From NCBI RefSeq assembly GCF_017875395.1, contig NZ_JAGGMO010000004.1:66478-130477 (forward strand): a stretch of DNA of 64,000 nucleotides, in the 5' to 3' direction. Positions 24,883-59,800 of the stretch are shown here, in pieces. The notes beneath the pieces are model-generated. The model had not been told where the DNA came from and did not search any database. It saw nothing but the letters and a program-made list of their open reading frames with translations. Both the position numbers and the translations under genes were made by a program. This DNA is from Methanococcus voltae. GTDB taxonomy: Archaea; AGJL01; Methanococci; Methanococcales; Methanococcaceae. Numbering within the stretch: position 1 is the stretch's first letter; each line of letters begins with the position of its first letter.

Positions 24883-25263
24883 TTATAAAAATAAATCTTC
24901 TAAATCATTATTTTCATCATTTTTAGATTTGTAATTTATTATTTCATACTTTATTTTTAATAATTTAGATACTGAATTCGATATTAAATTATAATCTTTT
25001 GAATTAACCTTATTTTCCAATAATAGAATTCCTTTATCAACCATATAATTTAATTTTACAATATCAGTATTGTATTCAGATTCTAAATCAGTTTCATTCG
25101 ATAAATCTTGTTTAACAAGGTTATCTTGGTCATTTTGTGTAATCTCATTATCGACATTGTTGTCAGTATTGCGCTTATTAAAAGTATGATTAAAAGTATT
25201 TTTAGATGAAAATGAAAAACAATCAAGCTTTAATTGTTTATATCTTTTATTTTCATCAATCAT
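24883..25263 (-). CDS. Unknown protein following the portal gene
   Basis: 126 residues, acidic and Asn/Asp-rich (T-D-N-N-V-D-N-E, D-L-E-S-E-Y-N-T), with a helical C-terminal half (M-V-D-K-G-I-L-L-L-E-N-K). The start is ATG 25263, three bases after the portal stop, with GGAG overlapping the end of the portal gene, so the two are translationally coupled. An upstream in-frame start at 25293 would overlap the portal gene. No family recognised; a head-assembly accessory role is suggested by position only. Confidence 0.6.
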   Translation of the reverse strand: MIDENKRYKQLKLDCFSFSSKNTFNHTFNKRNTDNNVDNEITQNDQDNLVKQDLSNETDLESEYNTDIVKLNYMVDKGILLLENKVNSKDYNLISNSVSKLLKIKYEIINYKSKNDENNDLEDLFL

Positions 25264-25265
25264 AT

Positions 25266-27227
25266 TTAATCTCCAAAGTATGTTATACCGCATTCACAAT
25301 TTAAGTCATATGGCGGTAATAATTCAGGATATTCGAAAGGTAAAAAGGTTAAACCATTTAGTTTAAAGTGTTCATCCTTTGAAACTATCATTATTCGTTT
25401 TTTCCAGTACTTTTTTATCATTGCTATGTTATAAGCCCTTAAAATATTTCTAAATACGATATTTTGCAATATAGTTATTTCAGTATCTTTGCTTAATTCT
25501 TGGATATTTTTAATTTTTTTACCATTTACAGCTTTTAAATAAATTTCCATTTCTTTTTTGAACGTTTTGTTAATTTTTTCCAACGTATCATAGTCTAAAG
25601 TTTCAAATAAATTCAAAGAATTTAATTTGGGAATCAAATATTCTAGAAGTAAATTATCACAAATTTGGCTAAAATTATCTTGACCATATGAATCACACAT
25701 ATTTCGTGAAATAAGTTTAAATTCATCCACTAAATTAAAATATTTATCTCTTTTGGCAGCAGCGTCATTTAAATTTTGCTCTAAATCTATTTTTTTACAA
25801 TTAGGGAAATTAATATCATTTGATTTTTCACCAACTCCATTTTCAATTTTTTCAATTTTTTCTTCCCCAATTAGCTCTAAATCATTTACTATGGAATCTA
25901 TTTCTTCACTAGTGTAATAATTGGAATTTGATTTCTCGTAGGACGCCATCATCTCTCCGTATTCATTACTTGGGAATATACGCTCTACGAGGGTAGAGTA
26001 ATCGTGACCAGTTTCTGATTCCGATTTTTTAAGTTCTGCAACTTCTTTAGCTTTTTCGATTATCTCTGACTCGAATTCAGGGTCGGGATTTGCAAATTTA
26101 ATCCAAATGTCAGGATAACCCATTTTGGTCAATTGGTCATTGACCCACCTTTCAACATCATCTTGATATCCTCGAATAATACCCATTAAATTCCGATATA
26201 TAGTCCTTGAAGTAGTTAATTCCTGACCTGAAGCTTTTATTATGCTTATACTTGTTCCTAAACCCATAAAAATCCCTGATTCGTAGTGATCCAACATTAA
26301 ACTTAATAAATCAACTGGTATGTCTTTTCCAATTGAAATTGTTTCAGAGTGGAATTTTTCAGGACTGCATGGTATAATAATCCTTGTTCCATTCTGATAA
26401 TTAGATAAACCAAGTTTAGCAGTCTTTAAAGCATTCACATCGTCAGAAACTGCTATAATTGTAGGCACTACTGATTTTTCAGCCATTTTTGGCATAATAC
26501 TACAGCCTAACGAATACTTATGATTGGACAACTCCTGTATAGTATCGTGAATTGGGATTGGGTTATTAAAAACAGACAAATAGATATCGGAATAATATTC
26601 GTCAGCTTCTACTTGATTCCAAACGTATTTTGGTGCAATAACCACATTCACGTCACCCAAATCCCCGTCCCACCAATTACCCTGTGCTTTTGTCGCAGAA
26701 TATTTTATAAAATATTCTTCTTGCTTATTCAAATATTTAAATTGATTAATAAGTTTAATTTTATCATTTTTATCATAATTAGAGGGATTTATATCGTTAT
26801 TTATCCTTAACTCAATTCCTTGAGGATCAATACGATTAAGTCGGTATAAAATACATTTCCCCCTAAGTAAATAATCAGATAAGGCTTTTTTTAACTCATC
26901 TTTTTTTGAATCGATTATATTAGATATATGGGATATCTCTTTATCCGATAATTTAAAGCTGGATGTAACAGTATACGTTGTAAAAACTTGAGAATAAAGT
27001 TGTTTTAGAGCCATATTTACTGCTACATCTTTTGATATATCTATGGTATGATTTCCATTTAATATTATCGAATCTTTATCATATTTTTCATTATTTTTGG
27101 ATTTAGCAATAGTTTTAATGCTTTTATTACTATTACTATTACTATTACTATTACTATTACTATTATTGGTAATACTAGTGTTACTAGTGCCTTTAATTTG
27201 AATGCCGTTTAATCTCATAACCACCAT
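25266..27227 (-). CDS. Portal protein fused to a MuF-type minor head domain
   Basis: 653 residues. Residues ~60-450 are portal-like: F-T-T-Y-T-V-T-S-S-F-K-L near the start, L-L-R-G-K-C-I-L-Y-R-L, E-S-G-I-F-M-G-L-G-T-S and S-R-T-I-Y-R-N-L-M-G-I-I-R-G-Y-Q-D-D. These make the ring through which DNA enters the capsid. The last ~130 residues resemble the Mu gpF domain, ending in Y-D-L-N-C-E-C-G-I. The N-terminus carries a run of Ser-Asn repeats coded by six-base units. The start is ambiguous between ATG 27227 and ATG 27218; GGTGG lies between them. It ends directly at the next gene and is 33 bases from terminase upstream. Confidence 0.82.
   Translation of the reverse strand: MVVMRLNGIQIKGTSNTSITNNSNSNSNSNSNSNKSIKTIAKSKNNEKYDKDSIILNGNHTIDISKDVAVNMALKQLYSQVFTTYTVTSSFKLSDKEISHISNIIDSKKDELKKALSDYLLRGKCILYRLNRIDPQGIELRINNDINPSNYDKNDKIKLINQFKYLNKQEEYFIKYSATKAQGNWWDGDLGDVNVVIAPKYVWNQVEADEYYSDIYLSVFNNPIPIHDTIQELSNHKYSLGCSIMPKMAEKSVVPTIIAVSDDVNALKTAKLGLSNYQNGTRIIIPCSPEKFHSETISIGKDIPVDLLSLMLDHYESGIFMGLGTSISIIKASGQELTTSRTIYRNLMGIIRGYQDDVERWVNDQLTKMGYPDIWIKFANPDPEFESEIIEKAKEVAELKKSESETGHDYSTLVERIFPSNEYGEMMASYEKSNSNYYTSEEIDSIVNDLELIGEEKIEKIENGVGEKSNDINFPNCKKIDLEQNLNDAAAKRDKYFNLVDEFKLISRNMCDSYGQDNFSQICDNLLLEYLIPKLNSLNLFETLDYDTLEKINKTFKKEMEIYLKAVNGKKIKNIQELSKDTEITILQNIVFRNILRAYNIAMIKKYWKKRIMIVSKDEHFKLNGLTFLPFEYPELLPPYDLNCECGITYFGD
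27126..27163. repeat. 6-bp microsatellite in the portal gene
   Basis: (ttacta) is repeated about six times. It codes for alternating Ser-Asn near the N-terminus of the portal protein. Changes in copy number would stay in frame. Confidence 0.92.
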
Positions 27228-27260
27228 CTCGTTATTTTAATGATAAACTTTCTCATTTCT

Positions 27261-28973
27261 CTATAGTATTGTGATATCATAATTATTAGAATGCTTAACA
27301 TCCTCGAATATCTCATTTAACACATCTGCAGGTATAATTTTTGAATTATTCAAATAACAATTATATACTGCAGGGACAACGCAATCTGCTAGATCCGGGC
27401 TATTTTTACCATAATAAATTACCTTATTTTCATTAATCTGATGTTGAAGTATCTGTAAATACAATTTTTCCCATATTTCGGGCTTACAATTTATTAAAAG
27501 TTCATTATTTTCCACCAATTGCTGAAAAATTTTCCAATTATCTATACTTTTTGATATTCTTTCTCCACCAAATTTTTGAATAAAAGCTTGGCTATTAAAT
27601 TGGTCAAAACTTAATTTTAGGGAGAAATTATTTTTTAAATAGCGTATAAATTCTTCTAAAGAATTATAATCTACGATGTGATTATTTGTGGGCTTTAATT
27701 CAATCAAATTTGCCAAATTCACGGTATTATTGGTCTTATCATAATACGCTATTGCAATCCCTGTGCTATCATGTTTAATCGATAAATCAAAATGAACGTA
27801 TAAATCGATACTTTTTTGTAAATTATTATTTAAAAATTCATTATTTTTTGTATTAGACAGTAATTTAAAGTTTAATTTAACTTTGCCATCTTTATCATCG
27901 TAATTTGGAGACCAACTAAATAGGGGTTCGCACTTGAACGTTTTAGTTGTTGTTGTAGCCATGGTTGTAGCTGTAGTCATAGTTGCAGAATCTTTGTGTA
28001 TGCGATTGGTATAGCAATTTTTTAACTTCTCTGCGTTAATAAAGTAATTACTTAATTCAGGAGGTTCACATTCGTACATTTTCTTTGCAAGGCTGTTATT
28101 ACGTTTATAATCATCATCAAAATCCGATTTATTACGATAAGTATTTACTTCCCAAGTAGCACCTTTAAAGCTGTATACATCACCCATACCCAAATTTTCG
28201 GAGTAAATTTTATAGCCAACGTCGTCTAATGGATTAGGGGTGGGAAAACGAGTCCAACTAATCATTACAACCTTTCCTTCTTTTCCCCATCGCGTTTGAA
28301 CAGAGGATTTAGCTTGATAAAATATTTTCTCTGCATTTAGGAAATTTTCATCAGAAATCTCATCAATTACAATACATTTTGGATTTGTACCTTCAAAACT
28401 AGCAGAACGGCTGTGTCCACTCGTAATTTTTACGATTTCACCTAGTTTAATAGATGTGTTATTGACTTTTATGGGGGATTTATCACTCTTTTTAAATATT
28501 TTCCAAAGCTTACAACGGTTAAACCACTGTTTAAACTCTCTAAAAAATACATTATGTGCTAAATCTGCATTAGGAGCAATATTTATAAAATCTACTCTTG
28601 TATAATTCACTTTTGATAATACTAAGTCAATAAGTTCGTCATTAAACAATAATGAAGTCATGAAATCCTTACCTCCACCCTTACCCACTAAAACGGTGCT
28701 TAAATAATTTTTTTTCATGTTTTTTAGAATTTCAGCTTGTTTAGGAGTTATACTGTCCAAATCTAACAAGTATTTACATCGTGCTATAATATCCATATTT
28801 TTAATTGTTTCTAGAAATTCGTCAAAAATATTCTTAAAATTTTTTTTAAGGTCTTTTTTTGTTTTAAAAAGTGTTTTAAAGTTAATATCTAAGTCCAAAC
28901 ATAATTTAAAAAATTCTGATGCGTTGAAAGTTTTAGTAGCAATTGCATGATTTACTAAATTTTTTAAATACAT
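27261..28973 (-). CDS. terL: Terminase large subunit (packaging ATPase/nuclease)
   Basis: 570 residues. Walker A is V-G-K-G-G-G-K at about 96-102 and Walker B is I-V-I-D-E at about 201-205, followed by the coupling-type S-W-T segment. The C-terminal RNase H-like nuclease shows D-L-Y-V-H-F-D-L-S-I-K-H-D-S-T-G (first acid), L-S-F-D-Q-F (second) and S-P-D-L-A-D (third). A Thr/Ala/Met-rich insertion (about residues 328-347) is low complexity. The start is ATG 28973 with GGTGA upstream. No clear small terminase is adjacent. All catalytic motifs are intact, so packaging is probably functional. Confidence 0.92.
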   Translation of the reverse strand: MYLKNLVNHAIATKTFNASEFFKLCLDLDINFKTLFKTKKDLKKNFKNIFDEFLETIKNMDIIARCKYLLDLDSITPKQAEILKNMKKNYLSTVLVGKGGGKDFMTSLLFNDELIDLVLSKVNYTRVDFINIAPNADLAHNVFFREFKQWFNRCKLWKIFKKSDKSPIKVNNTSIKLGEIVKITSGHSRSASFEGTNPKCIVIDEISDENFLNAEKIFYQAKSSVQTRWGKEGKVVMISWTRFPTPNPLDDVGYKIYSENLGMGDVYSFKGATWEVNTYRNKSDFDDDYKRNNSLAKKMYECEPPELSNYFINAEKLKNCYTNRIHKDSATMTTATTMATTTTKTFKCEPLFSWSPNYDDKDGKVKLNFKLLSNTKNNEFLNNNLQKSIDLYVHFDLSIKHDSTGIAIAYYDKTNNTVNLANLIELKPTNNHIVDYNSLEEFIRYLKNNFSLKLSFDQFNSQAFIQKFGGERISKSIDNWKIFQQLVENNELLINCKPEIWEKLYLQILQHQINENKVIYYGKNSPDLADCVVPAVYNCYLNNSKIIPADVLNEIFEDVKHSNNYDITIL

Positions 28974-29050
28974 CTATTCACCACATTTGAAAATTTGAAA
29001 ATTTGAAAAGTTTATTTAAGGTATTTATTTAATGTATTGCTGTAAATTAC

Positions 29051-29479
29051 CTACAATTCTTTAATAATACGACATATTATCCGCAAATCAATGTTTTTAC
29101 CGAATAATACTACATTATAAGTACAAAAACTTAAAATCTGGATCATATATGTGTATTCTACCTCATCTATTTGATTATTACATAATAAATCGTGGATAGA
29201 GTCCAGTATCCTCAAATAATCTAACTCGCCATCACTAGTGTGAGTACCAAATAAATCATCTAAAATCTTTACTAGCTCAATTTTACGGTTTTTTTGCATA
29301 ATATCGTTGGGATAATCCAAATAAGGTAGTAATCTTTCTTTAAAAAGATTCACTGTAGCTTCAGGTGAATTTTCAGAAGATAAATTATGTAAAACCTGTA
29401 AAATTGTAGAATTTTGCTGGTTTTCGATATTTTCCATATTTTGTTCGTTTAATTCATTTTTAGGTTTGAATAATGCCAT
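29051..29479 (-). CDS. Unknown cassette protein upstream of terminase
   Basis: 142 residues, helical, starting M-A-L-F-K-P-K-N. The first five residues resemble those of the 79-residue protein at 30629 (M-A-L-F-S-R-K). It is in the position where small terminases often lie, but no DNA-binding helix-turn-helix is evident. An aacacctct (GAGGTG on the coding strand) ribosome site precedes it. Confidence 0.5.
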   Translation of the reverse strand: MALFKPKNELNEQNMENIENQQNSTILQVLHNLSSENSPEATVNLFKERLLPYLDYPNDIMQKNRKIELVKILDDLFGTHTSDGELDYLRILDSIHDLLCNNQIDEVEYTYMIQILSFCTYNVVLFGKNIDLRIICRIIKEL

Positions 29480-29640
29480 AAAACACCTCTATTCGTATTA
29501 TTATTGTATTATAGTATTATCGTATTATCATATTATCATATTCATTTAGTGTACTAAGTTATTGTATTATCAACAGTTTCAAGATACTGATATCGGATAT
29601 TCTATAGCGATATTCGTTATTTAGTATTCATTATGTAGTT

Positions 29641-29925
29641 TTAACGCAATAGTATATCGATAAGTAAATCTATGAAAAACTTTAATAATGGGGTTAAAAG
29701 TATGCTAATACCATAATATCGCATAACCTGAATTAAAAGGGCTTCAAAACTTTTTTTAACTATATTTTTGAATATAATTCCTAGTAAGAACCCGCTAGAG
29801 ACTTCTAATATTGCCATTACCTTAGCCCTGTTGAAACGATTCAACATCCGAAGTACACTTTTTAACGGCGTTACTGGGTCTAATGGGCTTAACTCCCGTA
29901 ATTTTAGAAGAATTTGGAAATTCAA
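29641..29925 (-). CDS. Small membrane protein, downstream partner of overlapping pair
   Basis: 94 residues with two hydrophobic stretches: A-I-L-E-V-S-S-G-F-L-L-G-I-I-F near 38-52, and I-S-I-L-L-T-P-L-L-K-F-F-I-D-L-L-I-D near 72-90. It overlaps the preceding ORF by 104 bases in another frame. Either it is a separate holin-like or membrane protein with its own start, or the two are a single membrane protein joined by a frameshift. No family recognised. Confidence 0.45.
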   Translation of the reverse strand: MNFQILLKLRELSPLDPVTPLKSVLRMLNRFNRAKVMAILEVSSGFLLGIIFKNIVKKSFEALLIQVMRYYGISILLTPLLKFFIDLLIDILLR

Positions 29926-30256
29926 TTTTATTAAAGTTATTTAAACCCTTAAAAATTTTGTAAGAACTGTTTGCATGAATATTATAAACATTTAAGATTT
30001 TTGAACCTGCTATTACTATAAAATTGAATATAACGTCTGCATAAATGAAATTAAGTACTAATATGTTGACTATAAAAAAATTTAGAAATGATTTAAAGTC
30101 TTTTGAATAAACTGCATAAGAAATCATTGTTAAATTTATCAAAATTTGATAGATTACTCCCTTAGAGCTCTTAATATTTTTATAATTCGTATGCTCATTA
30201 TGGGTTGTATATTCGTTAGCACCTATTTTGCAATTATTTTTTGATTTAACTTTCAT
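29822..30256 (-). CDS. Small membrane protein, upstream partner of overlapping pair
   Basis: 144 residues beginning with a charged segment and followed by two hydrophobic stretches near 45-95 (F-F-I-V-N-I-L-V-L-N-F-I-Y and F-N-F-I-V-I-A-G). A strong GGTGG site lies before the ATG at 30256, so translation of this leftmost-arm first gene is credible. The last ~35 residues, which overlap the next ORF, are hydrophilic and look like off-frame sequence. The end may therefore be the product of a frameshift mutation or mark a programmed site. Confidence 0.45.
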   Translation of the reverse strand: MKVKSKNNCKIGANEYTTHNEHTNYKNIKSSKGVIYQILINLTMISYAVYSKDFKSFLNFFIVNILVLNFIYADVIFNFIVIAGSKILNVYNIHANSSYKIFKGLNNFNKIEFPNSSKITGVKPIRPSNAVKKCTSDVESFQQG

Positions 30257-30628
30257 AAATCCACCACTTTGAATTAAATAGTAATAACCTACGATTTAGT
30301 TTAATTTAATATTGTAATCACAGATATACCATAAAAATAAATACTATTTAATCTTTTTTTTTAATTTTAGTGTAATTATTTAATCTATATATTAATTAAA
30401 TTAGTATATATGCTTTATTTCTTAATTAAGAAATATATAGGGCAGTATTCAAAGATAAAATAGTAAACTATAAAGAGTCTTAAGGTATCTCTTGGATGTG
30501 TTACATTGGCTAAGTCGGTGTTACTGGAGGCATCAATGTAACGGATGAAAAATAAAAATAAAAAAAATAAATATAAAAAATAAGGAAATAAAGAATATAA
30601 CGCATAAAAACAAAATCAAAGGGATAAT
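30257..30628. promoter_or_regulatory. Divergent control region of the virus cassette
   Basis: 372 bases separating the leftward and rightward arms. TATA-like tracts flank it (tatatattaatt near 30386 and tataaagag near 30470). It contains a GC-richer segment at 30485-30550 with a perfect 9-bp inverted repeat. It should hold the promoters of both arms. Confidence 0.5.
30500..30542. repeat. 9-bp perfect inverted repeat around a GC-richer core
   Basis: GTTACATTG at 30500-30508 pairs with CAATGTAAC at 30534-30542 across 25 bases. The core holds a third, unpaired gttac copy. ggatg flanks both sides (30494-30498 and 30543-30547). It may be a regulator-binding site or a small structured RNA. Confidence 0.5.
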
Positions 30629-30868
30629 ATGGCTTTATTTAGCAGAAAAGATGACGGAAGCGAAATAAAATCAAATGCGAGAGATGTTGTAAGGTCAATA
30701 GCCAGAGACGAGGCTGAAAATATGAAAAAAGATCTTAGATTTGAAGCAGTTCAGAAAGAAGTTTTAGAACTTAAAATGAACAAAATTGCGACTGAAGTCG
30801 TTGAAAAGGATAATGTTTACGAAGAATTAAAAGACTTAAAAAGCAAAAATTCAAATGTTAGAGTCTAA
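30629..30868 (+). CDS. Small coiled-coil protein, first gene of the rightward arm
   Basis: 79 residues, almost wholly helical and charged (R-D-V-V-R-S-I-A-R-D-E-A-E-N-M-K-K). Its last residues run out of the coiled coil into N-S-N-V-R-V. A second frame continues the heptad pattern from 30855 (M-L-E-S-K-I-S-K-L-E-G-K). A scaffold or tail-chaperone role would fit the position before the protease, but no family is recognised. Confidence 0.55.
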   Translation: MALFSRKDDGSEIKSNARDVVRSIARDEAENMKKDLRFEAVQKEVLELKMNKIATEVVEKDNVYEELKDLKSKNSNVRV

Positions 30869-30917
30869 AATATCAAAATTAGAGGGTAAAATTGATGTAA
30901 TCGTAAAAATCCTATGA
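30855..30917 (+). CDS. 20-codon overlapping coiled-coil ORF in +1 frame
   Basis: This begins with ATG at 30855 inside the end of the previous gene and codes for M-L-E-S-K-I-S-K-L-E-G-K-I-D-V-I-V-K-I-L. The heptad spacing of Leu/Ile continues that of the 79-residue protein. Either a frameshift extends the upstream protein or this is a decayed end. Too short to be judged as a gene by itself. Confidence 0.35.
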   Translation: MLESKISKLEGKIDVIVKIL

Positions 30918-31031
30918 ATATAGGATAATACAGTATATAAAGAATTTAGAAACCCTCTTAATAACTTTTCTTAAAGAAATTTTAATAAAGATACTTATCA
31001 CTAAATTAATAAAATGAGTTAAGGTTATAAA

Positions 31032-31799
31032 ATGCAAAAATTATTCTTGCCCGTTCTAAATATAACCAACATAGATGGCTTTGAAATAACTGAAGAATGG
31101 CTATCTAAAAACTATGAAACATTACGGGGTAAACCGGTTAATATAGACCATAATTACGATAAAAAAAGTAATTATGCAGTAGGGCATGTTTCTGAGATAA
31201 TACTTTCAAAAACGAACGAACTTTATGCAATTGTTGAAGTTTTTGAAGAAATATATGATTTAAAAAGTAATTTGAAAGGCTGTTCAATAGAATACAATGA
31301 AAATACATCTGGAAAAGAAGGCATTATTCGAGCTTTGGCACTTTGTTTTGAAACGATACCTAAAGTTGAATTTGCCAAATCTTCTGGAAATATTGATGTT
31401 GCAGAAATATTGGCGTCATTGAATGATAAAAGCAAAAAATCTGACGGTAATAAAGAAAATAATAAAGAAAATAATAGTGAAAGTAAAGAAAATAAAAATA
31501 AAGATAAAAATAAAGATTTGGACAATTTTCAGGAACTTTCATCTAAAATAAACAATATATTGTCAGAATTAGAAGTTTTAAGAGATTTTTGTAATAAAAA
31601 CAATTCGTTATTAAAAACAATTATAAAAAAATCTGACGAAAAAACAGAAATTATGGCATCAATGTATTTTGATAAATTCAACAGTTCGGCAGATGATTTA
31701 AATAATTACAAATTAAAATCATTTAAAAACAAAATTAAAGAAGATAATTTGCCAAATCCAAATTCTAAAAACATAAAATCTCTCAATATGGATTTTTAA
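31032..31799 (+). CDS. Prohead protease with C-terminal scaffold
   Basis: 255 residues. The N-terminal ~115 resemble phage prohead proteases of the Mu-I/U35-like type: G-K-P-V-N-I-D-H-N-Y with a candidate catalytic His, A-V-G-H-V-S-E-I, L-Y-A-I-V-E-V, and G-C-S-I-E-Y-N as the probable nucleophile strand. A Lys/Asn/Glu-rich linker (about 140-165) leads to a coiled coil (L-S-S-K-I-N-N-I-L-S-E-L-E-V-L-R) expected of a scaffold cleaved during maturation. It precedes the capsid genes as usual. Assignment is by pattern and order. Confidence 0.75.
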   Translation: MQKLFLPVLNITNIDGFEITEEWLSKNYETLRGKPVNIDHNYDKKSNYAVGHVSEIILSKTNELYAIVEVFEEIYDLKSNLKGCSIEYNENTSGKEGIIRALALCFETIPKVEFAKSSGNIDVAEILASLNDKSKKSDGNKENNKENNSESKENKNKDKNKDLDNFQELSSKINNILSELEVLRDFCNKNNSLLKTIIKKSDEKTEIMASMYFDKFNSSADDLNNYKLKSFKNKIKEDNLPNPNSKNIKSLNMDF

Positions 31800-31839
31800 A
31801 ATAAAAAAATTCCAGATATTGAATTTACAAGTATTTTAT

Positions 31840-31950
31840 ATGGATATTAATTATTTAGCACTACTTAGGGCGTTACTAGTATTATTGGCATTATTAGTCT
31901 TATTCGTATTATTACCCAATATTTTGGTGCTATTCATAAATATTCAATAA
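31840..31950 (+). CDS. 36-residue single-helix membrane peptide ORF
   Basis: An ATG-to-TAA frame coding for M-D-I-N-Y-L-A-L-L-R-A-L-L-V, then continuing with Leu/Val/Ala/Ile to L-F-I-N-I-Q. It is one unbroken hydrophobic helix of about 25 residues with a single Arg. It lies between the protease and decoration-protein genes. No ribosome site is obvious. Possible roles are a membrane-active peptide for particle release or a chance frame in T-rich DNA. Confidence 0.4.
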   Translation: MDINYLALLRALLVLLALLVLFVLLPNILVLFINIQ

Positions 31951-31991
31951 ATATTACAAAAAACCCAAAATTACACTTTTAAGGTGATTAT

Positions 31992-32330
31992 ATGGATGTA
32001 ATCTCTGTAAAATTAGCCGAAAGCATTGAACCAAACACTTTTGTTACTATTGGTCAAAATGGCGTGTTAAAAGCTAGCGGTGCCAATATAATCGGTATAT
32101 TATCTAATGAAGGTAGCTATGACACAAAAACCAATAAAATAGAAGCTGAATCCATTGGAAACGTTTACGTATTGGGTATTCAGCGCGTTAAAACTAATGA
32201 GTCTTCGTCATTACATATGGGGGATTATGTAGTCTCCAATGTGGATGGTTATGCCATAAAATCAGAAACCGGGTCAGGATTTAAAGTCACCCGTGTTTCA
32301 GGCAGTTATGTAGACGTTTTATTGAGATAA
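31992..32330 (+). CDS. Capsid decoration/stabilisation protein
   Basis: 112 residues, all-beta in appearance: I-E-P-N-T-F-V-T-I-G-Q-N-G-V-L-K, I-I-G-I-L-S-N-E-G, L-H-M-G-D-Y-V-V-S-N-V-D-G-Y-A. This is the pattern of DUF2190-like or lambda gpD-like trimers that clip HK97-type capsids. Position immediately before the capsid gene supports this. Perfect AAGGTGA ribosome site. Confidence 0.7.
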   Translation: MDVISVKLAESIEPNTFVTIGQNGVLKASGANIIGILSNEGSYDTKTNKIEAESIGNVYVLGIQRVKTNESSSLHMGDYVVSNVDGYAIKSETGSGFKVTRVSGSYVDVLLR

Positions 32331-32444
32331 TTGAATTAATTAATCAATTAATAGCTATTTGATAATTGAGATAAAATAAGTTATAAAATAAATTACAGTA
32401 AAAATTACGGTAAAATAAACGATGAAAATAACTTGGGTGATGGT

Positions 32445-33218
32445 ATGACCAATGGTTTAACACCTGAACAACAAAAAATAGTCAAACAAAGGTTTCAAAA
32501 CATTAAAGATTCACAAGACATAGTTAAAAAAGTAATGCCTGAATCAATAATCGATTCTGCAAGTAGGAAGTATATTACTGAAACCATTAACATAGATGAT
32601 ACCACCATATTAGATAAATCAGATATGGAGGTTATAAATATACCTTATGGTCTTTCTGACGATGTAAAACGTATATTTGACTTAAATGCTAAAATAGTAA
32701 GGCCTACCAGGATGATGACAAACGAAGGAATATCCAAATTTTCGATAATTTTGGCTAAAATAATAACTAAATCGATAAATTATCACGGAATAAATGAATT
32801 AGTAGCTAATGGTACTGAAAAAGTTACTACGAATACTTGGGACGCTTGTACAATCAATAAAATGGTTGAAGATGTAGAAGATGGAGTATTTGAGATAATG
32901 GAATACAGTTCTGCGCCCATTAATATGATAGTACCCACAAGTAAGAGGAAATACCTTAACAAGCTAAATGACTATGGTTTAAAAGCAATTAGGGAATTGG
33001 ATGGTACAATAGCTAATATATACACATCTAACTTTTTAAATCCGGATACGGCTGTTTTAGTACCTTATGATGCAAGTATTGTAACATTTAACAAAGCTAC
33101 GCCATTATCTGTAGATTTAGAGGTTTTTGAAAAAACTCAAACCAAACTGATTGCTACGCAGGCTATTTGCCCATCTGTCGATGATAAAAACGGAGTCATA
33201 GTTTTAAAAGGTATCTAA
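32445..33218 (+). CDS. HK97-type major capsid protein
   Basis: About 257 residues, close to the small capsid/encapsulin class. P-E-Q-Q-K-I-V-K-Q-R-F near the start, R-P-T-R-M-M-T-N-E-G, and a C-terminal part with N-M-I-V-P-T-S-K-R-K-Y and I-A-N-I-Y-T-S-N-F-L resemble P-domain segments of HK97-like shells. The order protease, decoration, capsid, connectors supports the call. ATG 32445 is preferred: GGTGAT ends just before it; the TTG at 32433 would add four residues. No long N-terminal delta domain, because scaffold is carried by the protease. Confidence 0.78.
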   Translation: MTNGLTPEQQKIVKQRFQNIKDSQDIVKKVMPESIIDSASRKYITETINIDDTTILDKSDMEVINIPYGLSDDVKRIFDLNAKIVRPTRMMTNEGISKFSIILAKIITKSINYHGINELVANGTEKVTTNTWDACTINKMVEDVEDGVFEIMEYSSAPINMIVPTSKRKYLNKLNDYGLKAIRELDGTIANIYTSNFLNPDTAVLVPYDASIVTFNKATPLSVDLEVFEKTQTKLIATQAICPSVDDKNGVIVLKGI

Positions 33219-33337
33219 AAGTTAACGGCTTACTTTAGCATACTATTGATTTAATATTAGTTTAAGATTAGGTTAATGGTAGTTTAAAATTAGTTTAAAA
33301 TTAGTTTAAGTTTATAAAAAGGTAATCATGGGATAAA

Positions 33338-33634
33338 ATGACAGAAATCCTATTAAGTGACGTAATTTCCAAAATGAAGATATATTTAAATTTGGAACAG
33401 TTTTCCAATATGGAATTCGCTGAAGAATGTGCAAAAACCGCCATAAATGTATGCTCTGTTGAAAATTTAAACATAGTAACATTTTATGCTTGTTATTTAT
33501 ATATGCGACCATACGATGAAAATTCCAGTGCTTATTTGGAAATATACAAGAATTCTGTGGAAGAAATAAAAAATGGAACTATAGATATTGACCGTGGATT
33601 TAAAGAACTTACGGGAGATTGTTATAATGATTAA
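33338..33634 (+). CDS. Probable head-tail connector protein
   Basis: 98 residues, mainly helical, in the place of the head-completion adaptor (gp6/gp15-like) after the capsid gene. S-D-V-I-S-K-M-K-I-Y-L-N-L and Y-L-Y-M-R-P-Y-D-E-N-S-S-A-Y fit the general pattern but no motif is decisive. Its stop overlaps the next start by eight bases. Confidence 0.5.
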   Translation: MTEILLSDVISKMKIYLNLEQFSNMEFAEECAKTAINVCSVENLNIVTFYACYLYMRPYDENSSAYLEIYKNSVEEIKNGTIDIDRGFKELTGDCYND

Positions 33635-33965
33635 ATATTCTGAATATTACGATTTAATGGATAAAATAAATAAAGAACTTGTTAATAGCAATATTGAAGT
33701 TAAATCACAATTTAATCCCAAAATTTCAGATTATTTATTTGAAATGTATGTATGTGCAAAACCAAATTTTCATAAAAACATATGGAATATTGAATTGAAA
33801 TTAAAAATTAAACAGTTTAACAGTTTAAAATTAAATGGTTCTAAACTAGACGATATAAATTCTAAAATAGGTATTATAGAAAATATTTTGCAAAAATATG
33901 ATTTAATACTGGAAAATATCGAATATGAAAATTCGGAATTAAATTTGATATTTAAGACAAAGTAA
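33627..33965 (+). CDS. Probable tail-completion/head-closure protein
   Basis: About 112 residues from ATG 33627, which overlaps the end of the upstream gene and is preceded by GGGAG. A longer frame from 33588 would overlap far more. The protein is mixed alpha/beta, Lys/Asn-rich, with no recognised motif. The position between connector and tail tube suggests a tail-terminator or stopper role. Confidence 0.45.
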   Translation: MIKYSEYYDLMDKINKELVNSNIEVKSQFNPKISDYLFEMYVCAKPNFHKNIWNIELKLKIKQFNSLKLNGSKLDDINSKIGIIENILQKYDLILENIEYENSELNLIFKTK

Positions 33966-33988
33966 TATACTTAAAAAAAGGTGAATGA

Positions 33989-34693
33989 ATGGTAATTGCA
34001 ATTCAAAAACCTGACCAAAAGACCATATCCGCAAGTGGAAAACTTGCTATCCTATTAGCAGACTCTAAAGAGGAGATACTTACTACAGACGGTATAAAAA
34101 CAGAGTTTTCACTTTCAAATAATGAAGTTCTTTCGGGTTCCGAAATAGTAACTAAAAATGGTTTAAAGCTAAAAATAGGTACGGATTATAATATAAACGA
34201 TGCTTTAGGCATTTTTAATAAAATAACATTTAATATTGCTCCGAGCAGTAACGATGTGATATCTATAGAATATAGTTACGCAATCAAAGGTTTGGGCGGT
34301 GCAAGCGAATTGGAAGTTAAAGAAGAGATAGAAACTGAAGAAAAAACAATAGATTTTAGTTATGCAAAAATACAGATTGAAAAAGGTAGCTCACTAAGTG
34401 CAAGCTTTAAAGACCTTATAACACTTGGAGATATTGATACAATGGTTGAATTTGGGGGCAATATTGAAGTTACGCCCAAATATCGTAAGTATATAAACGG
34501 TAGCTCCAAAACTGCCACCATTGCCATTCAAGTTTATGGGGAACAGGCTGACGTAGTATACGGTGCGGCAGGTCCAAAACGACTAATTATATTAAAAAAC
34601 GTTAAAAAGAAGAGTTCAGGTTTAAAGTTCTCATCTGCAGAGCGTAGCTTTGATTTATCAGTCCAAAAACTTGAAATAATTGAGTACCTTTAA
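33989..34693 (+). CDS. Probable major tail tube protein
   Basis: 234 residues, beta-rich. The N-terminal S-A-S-G-K-L-A-I-L-L-A and T-K-N-G-L-K-L-K-I-G-T-D-Y segments, a mid-protein F-G-G-N-I-E-V-T-P-K-Y and repeated short strands fit a tail-tube fold. GGTGA lies four bases before ATG 33989. Gene order (connectors, then this, then distal-tail protein) supports it. No chaperone or tape-measure gene follows, which is unusual. Confidence 0.55.
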   Translation: MVIAIQKPDQKTISASGKLAILLADSKEEILTTDGIKTEFSLSNNEVLSGSEIVTKNGLKLKIGTDYNINDALGIFNKITFNIAPSSNDVISIEYSYAIKGLGGASELEVKEEIETEEKTIDFSYAKIQIEKGSSLSASFKDLITLGDIDTMVEFGGNIEVTPKYRKYINGSSKTATIAIQVYGEQADVVYGAAGPKRLIILKNVKKKSSGLKFSSAERSFDLSVQKLEIIEYL

Positions 34694-34872
34694 ATCTAAA
34701 GATTATATGCGCACTATTATATTCGTATTAATTATATTCGTATTAATTAATTATACTAGAATTTATTTTAAAATTCTTTAAAATTTCTTAAAATTCTTTA
34801 AAAATCTTCTTTTTCTTAAATTTAATCATATGTGCAGAGTAATTTATATTATTAAATTTTAAATGTGGTAAA

Positions 34873-37716
34873 ATGGCATTATATTATCATAAAGAAACAA
34901 ACAGTAATAATATAGCAGTTAAAATTCCCGTTATTCCTGCAAATAGTACCAAATATCTGACATTAGAAGAAAATTCTGAGTATACTATGTTTAACGACCC
35001 AAAAAATGTTTATACATATTTTTGGAAGTTTTCAGACATTAATTCACTTGCCGATTGGAGTGTGGAAAGCGGTTCGAAAAACAATGCTATATTTGAAAAT
35101 GGAATCATGAGACTTAACGCGACAAACGTATATAGTAGCTACGTTGAATTGCCTGAATCTTACAAGTTTATATCAAGATTTAGACCCGATCATATTTATT
35201 GTGGAATTATGTTGGGAAAAAATTACGGGAGTTATGCAGATATTATCCACTACGGGGATGGTACAAATAATTCTTCGACCAACCAGGAGCAATATGTCAG
35301 ATTAAATAATGTAGATATAGCCAATACACATAATTTGTTAAATTCTAACTGGTACGTTCAGGAATATAGGGTTACGGACTCAAAAGTAGGTTTTTATGCA
35401 GATAACGAACCAATATTCGAAAAAAACATTAGTTATAATGTTAGCGTTCTTGATAAGATAACTATCTCAAGTAATTCTTCAGGCGGTGGAGATGGTATAA
35501 TATACGTTGATTACATCGCAATTGCTGAATATTATGATAATATTCAGGTAACCTCTACCAATTTGGATAATACGTTGAAAATTACTGTAACGAATAATAA
35601 CAACTTCGATTTGGTGAACTACCCTATTAACATCAATATATCAGAGCTGAATTTAACAACTGAAAGTTTAAAAATTTCAGATGTTGATAATACTGAAGTA
35701 TATATTGTATTCAACAATCAACAGCTGTATACTAGTCAGGATAATTTACAAGTTTACGCTGAAGTATCCTGCGGAATGGGTTTAAAAAGCGTAAAAATTC
35801 AAAATAATCAGCATATGGCTCAAGATATGATAAAACTGGATAATTCAAAAAATACATATGGTTCAACCATACCGCTTTCAGATTCTATCAATAATTTGAA
35901 AGTCATTGCCACGAGTAAAGAGGATATAGTTTCAAATTCGGATGTTAAAATTGTAAATAAAATAGCTCCTGTTACTGAGGACAAACCCATTGTAACGATA
36001 ATTAAAACGCCCCCAATTCCCGAAACTACGAGTGAAAATTACATTACACTGCAATGCGATGTTTCAGATTCCGATGAAATACTCTATGTTAGGTGCTATA
36101 GCAATAAATTAAATGGTTATATCGAATTAAATAAAGTTGAAGGCACTATAAATCGGTACAGTTGTAATATGCCACTATTTTATGGTGATAATCATATTCA
36201 TATCATTATTTCAGACGTTAAAAATTATTTGGGTACATCTGAAACTCTTGTTATCACCAAAAACGATACAACAGCTCCAAAAATTATTTTTGATACACTT
36301 GATGTCAGATGTATAGATGAAGCCTATAGGGTTCTTGCTAAAGTTTACGACGATGAAAGTGGCTTAAAAGATGTAAAAGTGGTTCATTACGGCAATGAAA
36401 CGAAAATACAATACATGGATTATATGGGGAACGGAATCTATGAAAAGTTAATAAATTTGATAGACGGGGAAAATAAAATAAGGGTAATTTCACTGGATAA
36501 TAACGGTAATGAGTTAATTTCAAACACTAAAACCATTATTAAAGAAAATAAGGAAACAATTAATGTAATTAAACAAGAATTAATTCCCCAATTAGATATA
36601 GTATTTGAAAAACCGATTAATAAAGTAACAAATTCAATATATGGCGTAGAATGTTTTATAAACACGAATTTACAGCTTGACGGAGCTTATGTTATTTTAA
36701 ATGGAAATTCTATTAGATTAGATTGTATTGGCGACAAAAAATATGGTAAAAAAGTTAAATTAGATGAAGGACTCAATAATTTATATTTGCAAGTCAAAGG
36801 GCAGGGTTTAACAAAATATACTGAGAAATATTCAATATATTATTCTTTAAAAAATACTTTGAAATACATCAATAATGATAACGAAGTCATTGTTTTTGAA
36901 AAAAATATTGATTATGAAAAATTGAATAATAACGTTGATACATTGATATTTAGAAATATTGATGGATTAAATTATTCAAAAATGAATTATGAGACTAAGC
37001 AATCAAATAATGGAATAATTATTAATAATGGTACGTTAAATCCGTATAATTTAAAAATAAATGGATTGATTATTTCTAAAAATCCCGAAATTCTTGAAAA
37101 AAAGATTACAAACATATTTTCGCCGACTAAATCAGGTGTTTTGTATTTGCAATACGATGAAACTTATGAATGTCCGTGTAAAGTATGCAATATAAATATA
37201 AACTCTAGTCCCGACTCTAAAACCGATACGGTACGTGAATTCTCCATAGAATTAATAGCAGAAAAACCTTATTGGTTATCCAGTGAAAAATCTGTTGAAT
37301 TTTCAAAAGGTTCCTTGGGCTTTAAATATCCATTGAAGTTACCTTTAAACTTTGGACGTGTTAACAACCATAAAATAATTATAAATTCTGGTTATGTCGA
37401 AACTCCATTAAAATTAGAAATTAATGGACCCATGAATACAGCCGATGATTGTTTAATTGTTAATAACAGCACTAATGAACATATTAGGTTGTGCAAAAAG
37501 CTTGATACTTATGAATCGCTTTTTATAACCACTGAACCTATTAACGTTGTATATATGAATAAAAATACTGGGGAAACCAAAAAAGCTTTTGATTACGTTA
37601 CAATGGATAGCAAATTCTTTAATTTAAAAACAGGTACTAATGATATTGAATTAACAACTTCAAATCCTGATTTAAATGTAAAAATGATATACAGGTTTAG
37701 AAATTTGACATTATAA
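34873..37716 (+). CDS. Giant distal-tail (Dit-like) protein with adhesion modules
   Basis: 947 residues, the largest protein in the cassette. Residues ~1-230 look like a DUF2341/concanavalin-like module (I-P-A-N-S-T-K-Y-L-T-L, F-E-N-G-I-M-R-L-N, Y-V-D-Y-I-A-I-A). Immunoglobulin-like repeats follow to about 590 (T-I-I-K-T-P-P-I-P-E-T, D-T-T-A-P-K-I-I-F, D-D-E-S-G-L-K-D-V). The last ~330 resemble a siphovirus distal tail protein: F-R-N-I-D-G, R-E-F-S-I-E-L-I-A-E-K-P-Y-W, then the galectin-like domain with N-F-G. The fusion would put adhesion domains at the tail tip. Two C-rich motifs near residue 775 (C-P-C-K-V-C) are odd. Confidence 0.65.
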   Translation: MALYYHKETNSNNIAVKIPVIPANSTKYLTLEENSEYTMFNDPKNVYTYFWKFSDINSLADWSVESGSKNNAIFENGIMRLNATNVYSSYVELPESYKFISRFRPDHIYCGIMLGKNYGSYADIIHYGDGTNNSSTNQEQYVRLNNVDIANTHNLLNSNWYVQEYRVTDSKVGFYADNEPIFEKNISYNVSVLDKITISSNSSGGGDGIIYVDYIAIAEYYDNIQVTSTNLDNTLKITVTNNNNFDLVNYPININISELNLTTESLKISDVDNTEVYIVFNNQQLYTSQDNLQVYAEVSCGMGLKSVKIQNNQHMAQDMIKLDNSKNTYGSTIPLSDSINNLKVIATSKEDIVSNSDVKIVNKIAPVTEDKPIVTIIKTPPIPETTSENYITLQCDVSDSDEILYVRCYSNKLNGYIELNKVEGTINRYSCNMPLFYGDNHIHIIISDVKNYLGTSETLVITKNDTTAPKIIFDTLDVRCIDEAYRVLAKVYDDESGLKDVKVVHYGNETKIQYMDYMGNGIYEKLINLIDGENKIRVISLDNNGNELISNTKTIIKENKETINVIKQELIPQLDIVFEKPINKVTNSIYGVECFINTNLQLDGAYVILNGNSIRLDCIGDKKYGKKVKLDEGLNNLYLQVKGQGLTKYTEKYSIYYSLKNTLKYINNDNEVIVFEKNIDYEKLNNNVDTLIFRNIDGLNYSKMNYETKQSNNGIIINNGTLNPYNLKINGLIISKNPEILEKKITNIFSPTKSGVLYLQYDETYECPCKVCNININSSPDSKTDTVREFSIELIAEKPYWLSSEKSVEFSKGSLGFKYPLKLPLNFGRVNNHKIIINSGYVETPLKLEINGPMNTADDCLIVNNSTNEHIRLCKKLDTYESLFITTEPINVVYMNKNTGETKKAFDYVTMDSKFFNLKTGTNDIELTTSNPDLNVKMIYRFRNLTL

Positions 37717-37862
37717 TTATTAAAATTATATTTTATAATTATTAAAATAGCAATATTCTAAATCCCATCAATTTTTACTAAACTATTACTAAATTTATTT
37801 TATGATTCTTTAAATTAAATTATACAAATATGATAACTAAATAAGCTAATATAGGTGAATTT

Positions 37863-38726
37863 ATGGAATGGAGTGGATTTTTTAACGATAATAACGGCGA
37901 TAGACAGTACGATGCAGTAGACTGGGCCAAATTTATTACTAAATTGGTTAGTTCAGGTTTATTGTATTTGGGAGATAATTTGAAGGTTGGGCATATTGCT
38001 AATTCGGATATTGTCGTAAAAAAAGGTTCTGCACTTATTGAAGGTTATGGTTACGAGCTTACCGAAGATAAGGTTATTACATTAGACGTGGGAGGAGGCT
38101 CGACACGTGTTGACAAAATAGTTTTAAGACTTGACCGTAGTGAAAATGTACGAAATGTAAGCTTGAAGGTTATCAATGGCGATATTGTACGAAATGAAAC
38201 CATTTATGATTTACTACTTGCAGAAATAACCGTAAATGCAGGTCAAACGTTTGTAATTCCTGAAAATATTATAGATATGAGGGAAGATTATTCCGTTTGT
38301 GGTGTAGCCCACTCTACAAACCAAGAAGCACAAATTGACAGTTGGTTTAACCACGTGAAAGAGAAGTATCGTTTACCCCTCGTTGGTGAAATAACAATTT
38401 ATGAATCCACGGATACGGTGCAAACATACAATGATAATATATTTTCAATCCCGAATTGGCAATTGTACGATAATATCCGCTTTGAATTTATTTGGGAGGG
38501 TAAAAACGACTACTACACGGAGTTAGACCTTAGATTAAATGGTGAAATGTATGGGGTATATATTGAGCGTTCAAATTGTAAATTATTCTCTAAAAAATTC
38601 CCGGCTTCTGAGTCGATTAGTTGGAAAATAAAGCCACTATTTCCAACAGATAGCTATAGACCAGGGAGCCTCGTTTATTTAAAGATAATCGGGGAGTATG
38701 GGACAAGTTTTTTAACTCAAAATTAA
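37863..38726 (+). CDS. BppU-like baseplate / receptor-binding protein
   Basis: 287 residues. It begins with S-G-F-F-N-D-N-N-G-D-R-Q-Y-D-A-V-D-W-A-K-F-I, the N-terminal signature of siphovirus upper-baseplate or tail-tip proteins, with V-K-K-G-S-A-L-I-E-G-Y-G-Y and V-D-K-I-V-L-R-L-D typical of that domain. The C-terminal ~120 residues are beta-rich and probably bind the host. GGTGA ribosome site. It lies between the Dit-like and hub genes. Confidence 0.75.
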   Translation: MEWSGFFNDNNGDRQYDAVDWAKFITKLVSSGLLYLGDNLKVGHIANSDIVVKKGSALIEGYGYELTEDKVITLDVGGGSTRVDKIVLRLDRSENVRNVSLKVINGDIVRNETIYDLLLAEITVNAGQTFVIPENIIDMREDYSVCGVAHSTNQEAQIDSWFNHVKEKYRLPLVGEITIYESTDTVQTYNDNIFSIPNWQLYDNIRFEFIWEGKNDYYTELDLRLNGEMYGVYIERSNCKLFSKKFPASESISWKIKPLFPTDSYRPGSLVYLKIIGEYGTSFLTQN

Positions 38727-38736
38727 ATGTGATAAC

Positions 38737-39687
38737 ATGCTAAAAATACTAAATAAAAATTTTGAATATGTCAATGCAATAAAAATAAACGAATTATTAA
38801 ATTTAAGATGGGATAGAAAATTTTATTCTTCCGATATTTTTTCATTTAATTGTAAATATGATGGAGATATTAATGTTGGGCAATATGTCCTTTATAATGG
38901 TTACTTTGGTATCATTGAGTACATAAAAACGACTCTTGACGGGTATATGCAAGTAAATGGCAAAAGCCCTTTATCGATACTAAACAGAAGAGTGGCAATT
39001 AATGAAAACTATATAGGTAATATGGCAAAACCATTTAAAGCAATTATCTTGGAATTAATTAACGCAAATGTTACAAATCCCGTGGATACGACCCGTAAAA
39101 TAGATGTTATTGATATTTCAAACATTGTCGCAGACGGCAATATTTACGAATGCAGATGTAAGGGCAAAAATTTAGGAAGTATTTTAAATTCGATTTGTAA
39201 AGATAATAATGTCGGTCAACGAATGATTTTTGATTATACGAACAAAAAATTTCTATACGAACTTTATACTGGTAAAAATAGGGGTATAAACCAATCTGAA
39301 AACGAATGGATTATATTTTCCCCAGAAATTGGCAATATATATAATCAGGAATATATTAAAGATACAAAAATACTAAAAAACGTAGAATACGATATAAATT
39401 ATAATAAATTTAGTAAATCGCCTTATTCTGCAGAAATTACTTCGGGAATAGACAGATTTGAATTTACAGACGATAAATTTGTTGAAACAATAATAACCCT
39501 AAATACGGAAGTTAGTGATGACTGCGGATATAAAGATTTATGGGATTTAGGCGATATCGTAACCTGTCAAAGTAATAAATTTAATTTTAGTATCGATTTA
39601 CCGGTTATCGAAGTTTCTGAATTGATTAAAAATAATAATTTTAATTTAAGCGTTAAATTTGGAGATATTGAAGGTTTTAAAAAATAA
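38737..39687 (+). CDS. Tail hub protein, siphovirus Gp37-like
   Basis: 316 residues resembling the Gp37/Gp68-like family of phage tail hubs. It starts K-I-L-N-K-N-F-E-Y-V-N-A-I, has V-G-Q-Y-V-L-Y-N-G-Y-F-G-I-I-E-Y and V-N-G-K-S-P-L-S-I-L-N-R-R, and a second half with C-K-G-K-N-L-G-S-I-L. The start ATG overlaps a GTGATAAC ribosome site, and the gene is 10 bases after the previous stop. It is the last gene of the cassette and converges on a host gene. No peptidase or lysozyme domain is visible. Confidence 0.75.
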   Translation: MLKILNKNFEYVNAIKINELLNLRWDRKFYSSDIFSFNCKYDGDINVGQYVLYNGYFGIIEYIKTTLDGYMQVNGKSPLSILNRRVAINENYIGNMAKPFKAIILELINANVTNPVDTTRKIDVIDISNIVADGNIYECRCKGKNLGSILNSICKDNNVGQRMIFDYTNKKFLYELYTGKNRGINQSENEWIIFSPEIGNIYNQEYIKDTKILKNVEYDINYNKFSKSPYSAEITSGIDRFEFTDDKFVETIITLNTEVSDDCGYKDLWDLGDIVTCQSNKFNFSIDLPVIEVSELIKNNNFNLSVKFGDIEGFKK

Positions 39688-58951: not shown

Positions 58952-59800
58952 ATGGGTGTAAAATATAAAATAAACATAAAAACAGAAGATAGAAGATATG
59001 CTGGCACTGATTCAAATGTGTTCTTAAAATTATATGGGGAAAGAGGAATTAGTGAAACCTACAGGTTAAATAAATATATTAAAGGAAACGCTTTTAAAAG
59101 AAACGCGACAGACCACGTTGAATTAGATGTTGGACAAGATATTGGGGATATATATAAAATAAAATTATCTACCGACGGTAGATTTGCAGGTTCTGGCTGG
59201 TTACCTGACTTTATAACAGTTATAAACGATGGTTCCGATAGGCAAGAAACTAAATTCTTCGTTAATCAATGGCTTGATGGTAACGAAGTTGAGAGAAATG
59301 CGGTAAATTACAATAGTGCTTCAGTTGACCCTATTGAACAAAATTCGATATCCGTGGCGGGAGAAACTAAAATATTTGACAATAGGCAAGGTAACGAACC
59401 TATAGACTATAGCTTTAGATTTTTAAGTAAGTTTACGACTGAAATAGATTTTTTAGAAAAAACAGCTTCGACTATTTCGACAGGTACTGAAATAAAGGGT
59501 TCATTTTTAGATTACTTTGAAATGTGCGTAAAATTAGAAGCTACTGGGGCGGTTGAAAATCAGATTGCGAAAAAAATAGGCACTGAAGAGTTGATTGAAG
59601 AAAGCGTAGCTATGACAATCCCTGCAAAGGAAATGATTGAATTAACGCCTTATTGGGTAACAAACTATTATAGGGACATGGTTAGTATGGGCGATAGCTC
59701 TATAGAACTACTTGTACCTTATCAAAAGGAATTTGGCGGTTATAAGATAATTAGGATAGATGCTCAAAACAACCAAAATGTTATGGTAAATAAAAGGTAA
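58952..59800 (+). CDS. PLAT/LH2-domain protein, copy 1
   Basis: 282 residues. Residues ~3-110 form a PLAT (lipoxygenase homology) beta sandwich: Y-K-I-N-I-K-T-E-D-R, A-G-T-D-S-N-V-F-L-K-L-Y-G, D-I-G-D-I-Y-K-I-K-L-S-T-D and G-S-G-W-L-P-D-F-I-T-V. PLAT domains usually bind membranes or proteins and are better known in eukaryotes and bacteria. The remaining ~170 residues are unrecognised; they share I-D-F-L-E-K-T and E-L-T-P-Y-W with the neighbouring paralogue. No signal peptide. A GGGGAG site precedes the ATG. Confidence 0.8.
   Translation: MGVKYKINIKTEDRRYAGTDSNVFLKLYGERGISETYRLNKYIKGNAFKRNATDHVELDVGQDIGDIYKIKLSTDGRFAGSGWLPDFITVINDGSDRQETKFFVNQWLDGNEVERNAVNYNSASVDPIEQNSISVAGETKIFDNRQGNEPIDYSFRFLSKFTTEIDFLEKTASTISTGTEIKGSFLDYFEMCVKLEATGAVENQIAKKIGTEELIEESVAMTIPAKEMIELTPYWVTNYYRDMVSMGDSSIELLVPYQKEFGGYKIIRIDAQNNQNVMVNKR

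Follow-up and report, generated by a model that had tools for sequence, protein, structure and literature searches.

Gene content of the cassette and its viral relatives

We analyzed a 64,000-nt stretch of a Methanococcus genome (G000), called the window here (NZ_JAGGMO010000004.1, positions 66,478 to 130,477), in which a cassette at window positions 24883 to 39687 carries 15 open genes that encode a tailed particle, laid out in two arms that diverge from a single control region. The left arm, on the minus strand, comprises g1, the portal, the terminase large subunit (TerL), g4, and g5; the right arm, on the plus strand, comprises g6, a protease-type protein, a cement-like protein, the capsid, two connectors, the tail tube, the distal tail protein (Dit), a baseplate/receptor-binding protein, and the hub. 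All of the packaging, capsid, connector, tube, distal tail, and hub genes listed in an earlier note on this DNA were present and open. Two other Methanococcus genomes (G005 and G006) carry the cassette, and we compared four further Methanococcus genomes with these three.

By TerL, the nearest virus was Methanocaldococcus fervens tailed virus 1 (MFTV1), of the Fervensviridae, with 46% identity; the next were phages, at about 25%. We compared the cassette proteins with 28 of the 43 MFTV1 proteins and found matches for 10 of the 15 genes at E values up to 0.03 (range, 7e-151 to 0.022), with 8 below 1e-3. The pairs were collinear: portal with gp04, TerL with gp05, g4 with gp07, g6 with gp10, protease with gp11, cement with gp12, capsid with gp13, connectors 1 and 2 with gp14 and gp15, and tube with gp16. 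The weak matches were those to gp07, gp10, and gp15. Profiles gave direct evidence for the terminase, Dit, hub, and baseplate protein, while the remaining names come from the collinear MFTV1 homologues and gene order.

In the left arm, the portal (25266 to 27227; phmmer E 1e-118 to gp04) has a ratio of nonsynonymous to synonymous substitution rates (dN/dS) of 0.08 to 0.11. The small protein after it, g1 (24883 to 25293), stands at the position of gp03, to which similarity was not detectable; it has 124 to 180 residues in the three genomes and a dN/dS of 0.14 to 0.48. TerL (27261 to 28973) matched the PHROG terminase large subunit at E 3e-7, and Pfam family PF03354, used as a TerL probe, had no match in the whole genome (0/1). 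All of the residues of what we take to be the Walker A motif, the Walker B motif, and the nuclease site, including the nuclease acidic residues, are invariant between the cassette and MFTV1, in agreement with the intact terminase motifs noted earlier. The gene at the terminase small subunit (TerS) position, g4 (29051 to 29479), matched gp07 at E 3e-4. The gene next to the control region, g5 (29822 to 30256), evolves fast (dN/dS 0.33 to 0.51) and encodes one hydrophobic stretch at the place of the MFTV1 membrane protein gp08; a release or holin-like function is possible. No lysis gene could be named, as the earlier note had said, but g5 leaves that claim uncertain.

In the right arm, g6 (30629 to 30868) encodes a very conserved 79-residue protein that is weakly gp10-like (E 0.022; dN/dS 0 to 0.06). 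It is followed by a prohead protease/scaffold-type protein whose role we infer (31032 to 31799; E 3e-36 to gp11), a cement/decoration-like protein (31992 to 32330; E 2e-15 to gp12, with a weak PF09956 match below the family cutoff), the major capsid protein (32445 to 33218; E 2e-71 to gp13, with a weak match to the phrog_264 major head protein, E 0.036), head-tail connector 1 (33338 to 33634; E 2e-10 to gp14), head-tail connector 2 (33627 to 33965; weakly gp15-like, E 0.0035), and the tail tube protein (33989 to 34693; E 2e-55 to gp16, its role taken from gene order). The true starts of the capsid and connector 2 are likely the internal ATG codons at 32445 and 33627, of which the former agrees with G006; the open reading frame (ORF) listing gives TTG codons at 32433 and 33588. 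The names of the tube and capsid are inferences because the AlphaFold models of both (mean confidence score [pLDDT], 46 and 48, respectively) were too poor for structure searching. Searches of solved-structure profiles with the tube, capsid, TerL, hub, and Dit gave nothing useful, the best capsid match being a T4-type tail sheath (E 0.055).

The tail tip is of another phage type, and its three proteins had no match to the MFTV1 tail tip. Dit (34873 to 37716; PF22768, E 2.5e-7) has 947 residues with a long N-terminal extension; the baseplate/receptor-binding protein (37863 to 38726) matched phrog_1220 (E 4e-38; named "head protein" there) as well as Lactococcus phage receptor-binding proteins; and the hub (38737 to 39687) belongs to the Sipho_Gp37 family (PF14594, E 2.5e-32). 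Three IMG/VR contigs (L044, L045, and L050), whose near-identical matches probably represent one virus type, have the same head genes and a Dit homologue (E 2e-21 to 9e-23 in all three). A hub homologue (E 1e-18) was found in the L050 contig, that is, in one of three records that may be fragments, and a hub scan of viral contigs found nothing.

Between the tube and Dit, the cassette has a 179-base gap (34694 to 34872) where the viral relatives have a chaperone and a tape measure. All three IMG/VR contigs carry a gp17-type chaperone and a tape measure in this interval, the order in L050 being tube, chaperone, 680-residue tape measure, and Dit. In two bacterial phages that encode relatives of the hub, a long gene likewise lies a short way upstream of the hub gene; its annotation is tape measure in one phage and Smc-like in the other. 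Given these gene orders, the tail-length genes were most likely lost from this interval of the cassette. MFTV1 gp06 (neck-1), gp17, gp18, and gp19 (the tape measure; phrog_58, E 8.5e-16) had no counterpart in the cassette, and no tape-measure, chaperone, or integrase match was found among all 15 cassette proteins in profile and MFTV1 searches. These searches bear out the earlier claim that the cassette lacks integrase, replication, tape-measure, and chaperone genes; the missing neck-1/tail-completion gene of the gp06 type had not been mentioned. MFTV1 differs in having an integrase, neck-1, a tape measure of 846 residues within the locus, a tail tip of a different kind, and about 20 further genes, and the cassette is not the complete virus, with integrase and tape measure at the locus, that defines the Fervensviridae.

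An ectopic chaperone, its +1 frame, and a candidate tape measure

The earlier note had proposed that the tape-measure gene might lie elsewhere and that a profile search of the genome could find it. No tape-measure profile matched, but the gp17-type chaperone profile found an ectopic locus in all three cassette genomes (G000 contig C2, 255127 to 255474, E 3e-23; G005, E 7e-22; G006, E 3e-19). A second match in G006 (E 0.1) lies in a 47-residue frame. Among the four cassette-free genomes, the best matches had E values of 0.001, 0.002, and 0.017 in 430-residue ORFs, with none in G003. In all three genomes, the ectopic locus is flanked by a ribD-like gene on one side and a histone gene on the other, with two tRNA-Gly genes nearby, and the chaperone is followed there by an ORF of 245, 242, or 244 residues. 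In G005, the locus shares a contig with the cassette, at a distance of about 240 kb; in G000, the two are on separate contigs.

Each chaperone-profile match extends slightly beyond the chaperone's own stop. The chaperone frame stops at UAG shortly after TCC TTT CTG GAT, while the +1 frame from AAT CCT TTC TGG stays open for 54 to 56 codons (product NPFWIRWA...). This extension is identical at 23 of 50 positions to the +1 extension of MFTV1 gp17 (46%; none of 2,000 shuffles reached the score) and at 26 of 50 to that of L050, and the stretch beyond the chaperone stop has a dN/dS of 0.03 to 0.13. The sequence AAATCCTTTC is found in five of the six sequences, L034 having AATTTTC instead, and the codon that follows, CTG, accounts for 18 of the 752 leucine codons in 21 window genes. 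The sequence of the +1 product suggests that this frame would be entered by a ribosome shift at TTT C. Frameshifting in G/GT chaperones, which act on the tape measure, is the subject of a review that names the haloarchaeal virus HSTV-2 as a likely +1 case (PMC5009743); the predicted +1 shift would be a new instance of this known device. The MFTV1 record (L016, 11406 to 11940) annotates gp17 without its conserved +1 frame extension.

The ORF after the ectopic chaperone stands at the tape-measure position of lambda-like phages, and its size is similar to that of the tape measure of the Rhodobacter capsulatus gene transfer agent (RcGTA; PMC7296036). With the starts as chosen, its length stays at 242 to 245 residues although pairs with G006 need 12 to 15 gap positions per side, and its dN/dS is 0.23 to 0.33. 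From its position and size, this ORF is likely to be the tape measure. Other routes to a tape measure were unproductive: phrog_58 matched none of the three cassette genomes, while 11 of 14 control genomes matched; MFTV1 gp19 matched none of the three and both of two genomes in the related family; PF10145 matched none of seven genomes; and a three-virus profile matched one of seven, at E 0.47, in a cassette-free genome.

The control region of the cassette (30257 to 30628) and the ectopic locus share the 15-mer AAACTATAAAGAGTC. It lies on the plus strand at 30465 to 30479, 149 bases before g6, with a second exact copy 34 bases upstream of the ectopic chaperone; G005 and G006 also have exact copies at the two sites. 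We scanned 588,740 bases of G000 (contigs C2 and C4, 31% of the genome) and 331,000 bases of G005 and found no further exact copy; copies with one mismatch numbered one in the scanned part of G000 (in stretch L084) and zero in that of G005. Under a simple composition model, about 0.002 exact 15-mers are expected to be common to two such regions, a figure calculated after the element had been noticed. We read AAACTATAAAGAGTC as a probable promoter element of the TATA type, lengthened by a specific extension. A perfect 18-nt palindrome, ATTTCTTAATTAAGAAAT, lies in the same control region of the cassette (30417 to 30434); it is unchanged in G005, has one change in G006, and is a candidate operator.

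Conservation of the cassette and its link to a gene transfer agent

The cassette has the same flanking genes in G000, G005, and G006 (8 of 8 tested neighbor genes), and all 15 cassette genes are open in all three genomes, with lengths that agree except in g1 (124 to 180 residues), in g4 (129 to 154), and for small differences. Between G000 and G005, 12 of the 15 genes had a dN/dS of 0.03 to 0.18, and the others were g6 (0), connector 2 (0.24), and g5 (0.33); between G000 and G006, 12 of 15 had a dN/dS of 0.05 to 0.19, and the others were g1 (0.33), connector 2 (0.27), and g5 (0.51). Seven flanking host genes gave 0.03 to 0.15. Purifying selection on the cassette is close to that on its neighbors and somewhat weaker overall. 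The synonymous rates overlapped as well (0.15 to 0.73 for the cassette and 0.31 to 0.47 for the flanks against G005; 0.59 to 2.04 and 0.78 to 1.42 against G006), and those of connector 2 and g1 may be depressed, as the stretches used overlapped other genes. Thus, as in a gene transfer agent (GTA), the virion genes have been inherited vertically at one chromosomal site under purifying selection, and the cassette has no integrase or genome-replication module. The long domestication proposed in the earlier note is supported by the shared locus, the open genes in three genomes, the flank-like dN/dS, and the overlapping synonymous rates.

Two other points of that note do not count toward domestication. 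The divergent arms are there, but they were inherited from MFTV1-like viruses and are no sign of domestication, as MFTV1 has the same divergent layout. The host-like composition is also real (GC content 0.25 to 0.31, similar to the flanks), but it says little about domestication because the hosts of MFTV1-like viruses are A+T-rich as well.

A search of 36 genomes from the phylum detected TerL in five, and it was absent from the four other Methanococcus genomes; the two TerL genomes outside the genus carry MFTV1-like proviruses whose tape measures are 100% and 93% identical to gp19. A beta-propeller gene that neighbors the cassette is present in all four cassette-free genomes, but the gene order around it differs, so that no clean empty site was obtained. 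Scans of a genome-contig collection for TerL found nothing, which says little because the Methanocaldococcus relatives also went undetected.

The voltae transfer agent (VTA) has a head of about 40 nm, a tail of about 61 nm, and 4.4 kb of DNA, and it packages host DNA nonspecifically. Its predicted small terminase in M. voltae, Mvol_0412, has 125 residues and 14.6 kDa and is encoded directly upstream of the terminase (Sherlock et al. 2019, PMC6854486); a 2024 review also mentions a putative small terminase of the Methanococcus VTA (PMC11841831). The product of g4 has 142 residues in G000 and 154 in G005, and the G006 orthologue, read from its MALF start, has 125 residues and 14.61 kDa and adjoins TerL. 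Because this TerS equals Mvol_0412 in length and mass, the cassette very probably represents the locus that the literature has already assigned to VTA, and the link to VTA that had been suggested is upheld by a published entry. The portions of the VTA literature covered name only TerS, with no ectopic chaperone/tape-measure locus, frameshift, or shared element; neither an ectopic locus nor a tape measure for VTA appeared there, and other VTA and MFTV1 papers may describe more. The cassette itself counts as already assigned, and the ectopic module as apparently new.

To our knowledge, the genes of RcGTA are unrelated to those of the cassette. RcGTA is likewise a domesticated tailed-phage cassette with ectopic loci, but these encode tail fibers, head spikes, and maturation proteins, not a tape measure (PMC6854486). 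Its tape measure is also short, with a 113-residue helix, 83 residues of strands and loops, and a 20-residue helix, in a tail of five tube rings (PMC7296036).

Interpretation, rival explanations, and neighboring elements

From the gene content, conserved location, selection, conserved +1 frame, shared element, and lack of integrase and replication genes, we hold with good confidence that an archaeal GTA (VTA or an orthologue) has its structural locus in this cassette, which derives from an MFTV1-like temperate tailed virus and has its tail-length module in trans. Somewhat less firmly, we favor a two-part VTA genome, in which the cassette and a detached module beside the histone gene, encoding G/GT (by +1 frameshifting) and a roughly 245-residue tape measure, would be under one dedicated 15-base promoter element that possibly marks further members of the GTA regulon. 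A host signal would lead to transcription of the cassette and the ectopic locus together, through the element common to their promoter regions. The cassette genes would supply the head, packaging motor, neck, tail tube, and tail tip, the last formed by Dit, the hub, and the receptor-binding protein. Chaperone G and its frameshift product GT would bind the short tape measure and bring tube protein to it, the terminase would fill heads with host DNA, presumably without specificity, and g5 is a candidate for particle release.

Several points weigh against this picture. The candidate tape measure has no tape-measure match in PHROG or Pfam, reached an hhalign probability below 0.1% against viral tape-measure profiles, and is rich in asparagine (37 of 245 residues). 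Of 18 end-to-end comparisons with viral tape measures, only two fell below 5% of shuffles (G000 against the N terminus of L050, 0 of 500; G000 against that of L034, 14 of 500). AAACTATAAAGAGTC is known from two loci and was picked after being seen, in a scan of 31% of the genome. No neck-1 gene clearly belonging to the system was found. The chance pair of capsid and gp07 scored E 0.004 in the same MFTV1 search, so that the pairing with gp15 and gp10 relies on gene order. The VTA link is an agreement in protein length and mass, and the cassette is known here from its genes.

We therefore weighed other explanations. The cassette might work without a tape measure, making tails of ill-defined or minimal length, with the ectopic genes an unrelated remnant. 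This would account for a candidate that matches none of the tape-measure profiles tried, and we regard it as unlikely, because G/GT-type chaperones act on the tape measure (PMC5009743), because the chaperone, GT frame, and candidate are kept in all three genomes and share a control element with the cassette, and because the candidate length is steady despite the gaps, although this depends on the starts chosen. A defective provirus in decay, its structural genes not yet gone, would explain a cassette without integrase, replication, and neck-1 genes, and the same genome does hold such a wreck (C2, 25.3 to 31.4 kb). Decay is nevertheless hard to reconcile with 15 open genes at the same locus in three genomes, a dN/dS mostly of 0.03 to 0.19 at synonymous divergences of up to about 1 to 2, and purifying selection on the ectopic chaperone and its +1 extension too, and we consider it very improbable.

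Least credible of all is a satellite or live virus with its remaining genes elsewhere, for example with the MFTV1-type integrase (E 1.8e-111 to MFTV1 gp02) that lies with a gp01 homologue 35 kb away on the same contig. G005 likewise has an MFTV1-type integrase about 34 kb off, but it is a different one: the G000 integrase scores higher to that of MFTV1 (370 bits) than to that of G005 (281 bits), so that they probably do not represent a single inherited gene. The 25 kb of intervening DNA within the window is host-type by eye, and the other 10 kb was partly viewed. The similar distances suggest an integration hotspot. The earlier note had taken an adjacent integrase and replication module as evidence against its reading; this distant integrase appears to belong to a different element. 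No convincing attachment repeats were found around the cassette, as that note had also reported, the 20 largest of at least 60 repeat families being A+T-rich low-complexity or weak pairs, and no tRNA was found in the window.

If the GTA reading is right, the VTA gene set and its switch become open to simple deletion tests in a methanogen, now that the cassette has a named ancestor virus, a second locus, and a control element common to both loci. VTA particles and gene transfer have been known since 1999, and the gene set is little described in the literature covered. Moving the tape measure out of the cassette may be a way for the host to stop the virus from re-forming.

Neck-1 was sought with three probes. 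MFTV1 gp06 matched none of the three cassette genomes and both of two others, and phrog_26 matched one of seven genomes, a cassette-free one (E 0.125). A four-virus profile had one match in G000 contig C2 (E 1.4e-12), inside a wrecked second tailed provirus, and none in 331,000 bases of G005. We did not count this gene in the system because of its place in the wreck and the lack of a match in the scanned part of G005; it may or may not serve the cassette particle.

The wrecked provirus (L078, 5298 to 11436; G000 C2, 25298 to 31436) lies beside a CRISPR array. By eye, it has two overlapping ORFs that look like TerL pieces and a portal-like ORF, without a Pfam match; it also has an HK97-gp10 neck gene (PF04883, E 9e-6), a g6 homologue (E 6e-24 to that of the cassette), and a Dit (PF05709 and PF22768), and neither a capsid nor a tube was among the ORFs listed. 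CRISPR repeats were found in four stretches of contigs C2 and C4 (L077, L078, L079, and L098), with 66 spacers. None matched the cassette over more than 15 nt, and against the cassette, MFTV1-like viruses, and the wrecked provirus there were short matches only (14 to 15 nt, one of 19 nt, and one of 26 nt at 88%; E 0.005 or worse). The integrase island (L098, 3454 to 16410; G000 C4, 43454 to 56410) holds, by eye, a PHP/AAA-type ORF, an HNH-type ORF, and a toxin-antitoxin-like pair. At window positions 58952 to 60907, two adjacent paralogous ORFs each have an N-terminal PLAT/LH2 domain (PF01477, E 3e-20 and 5e-17), here in an archaeon.

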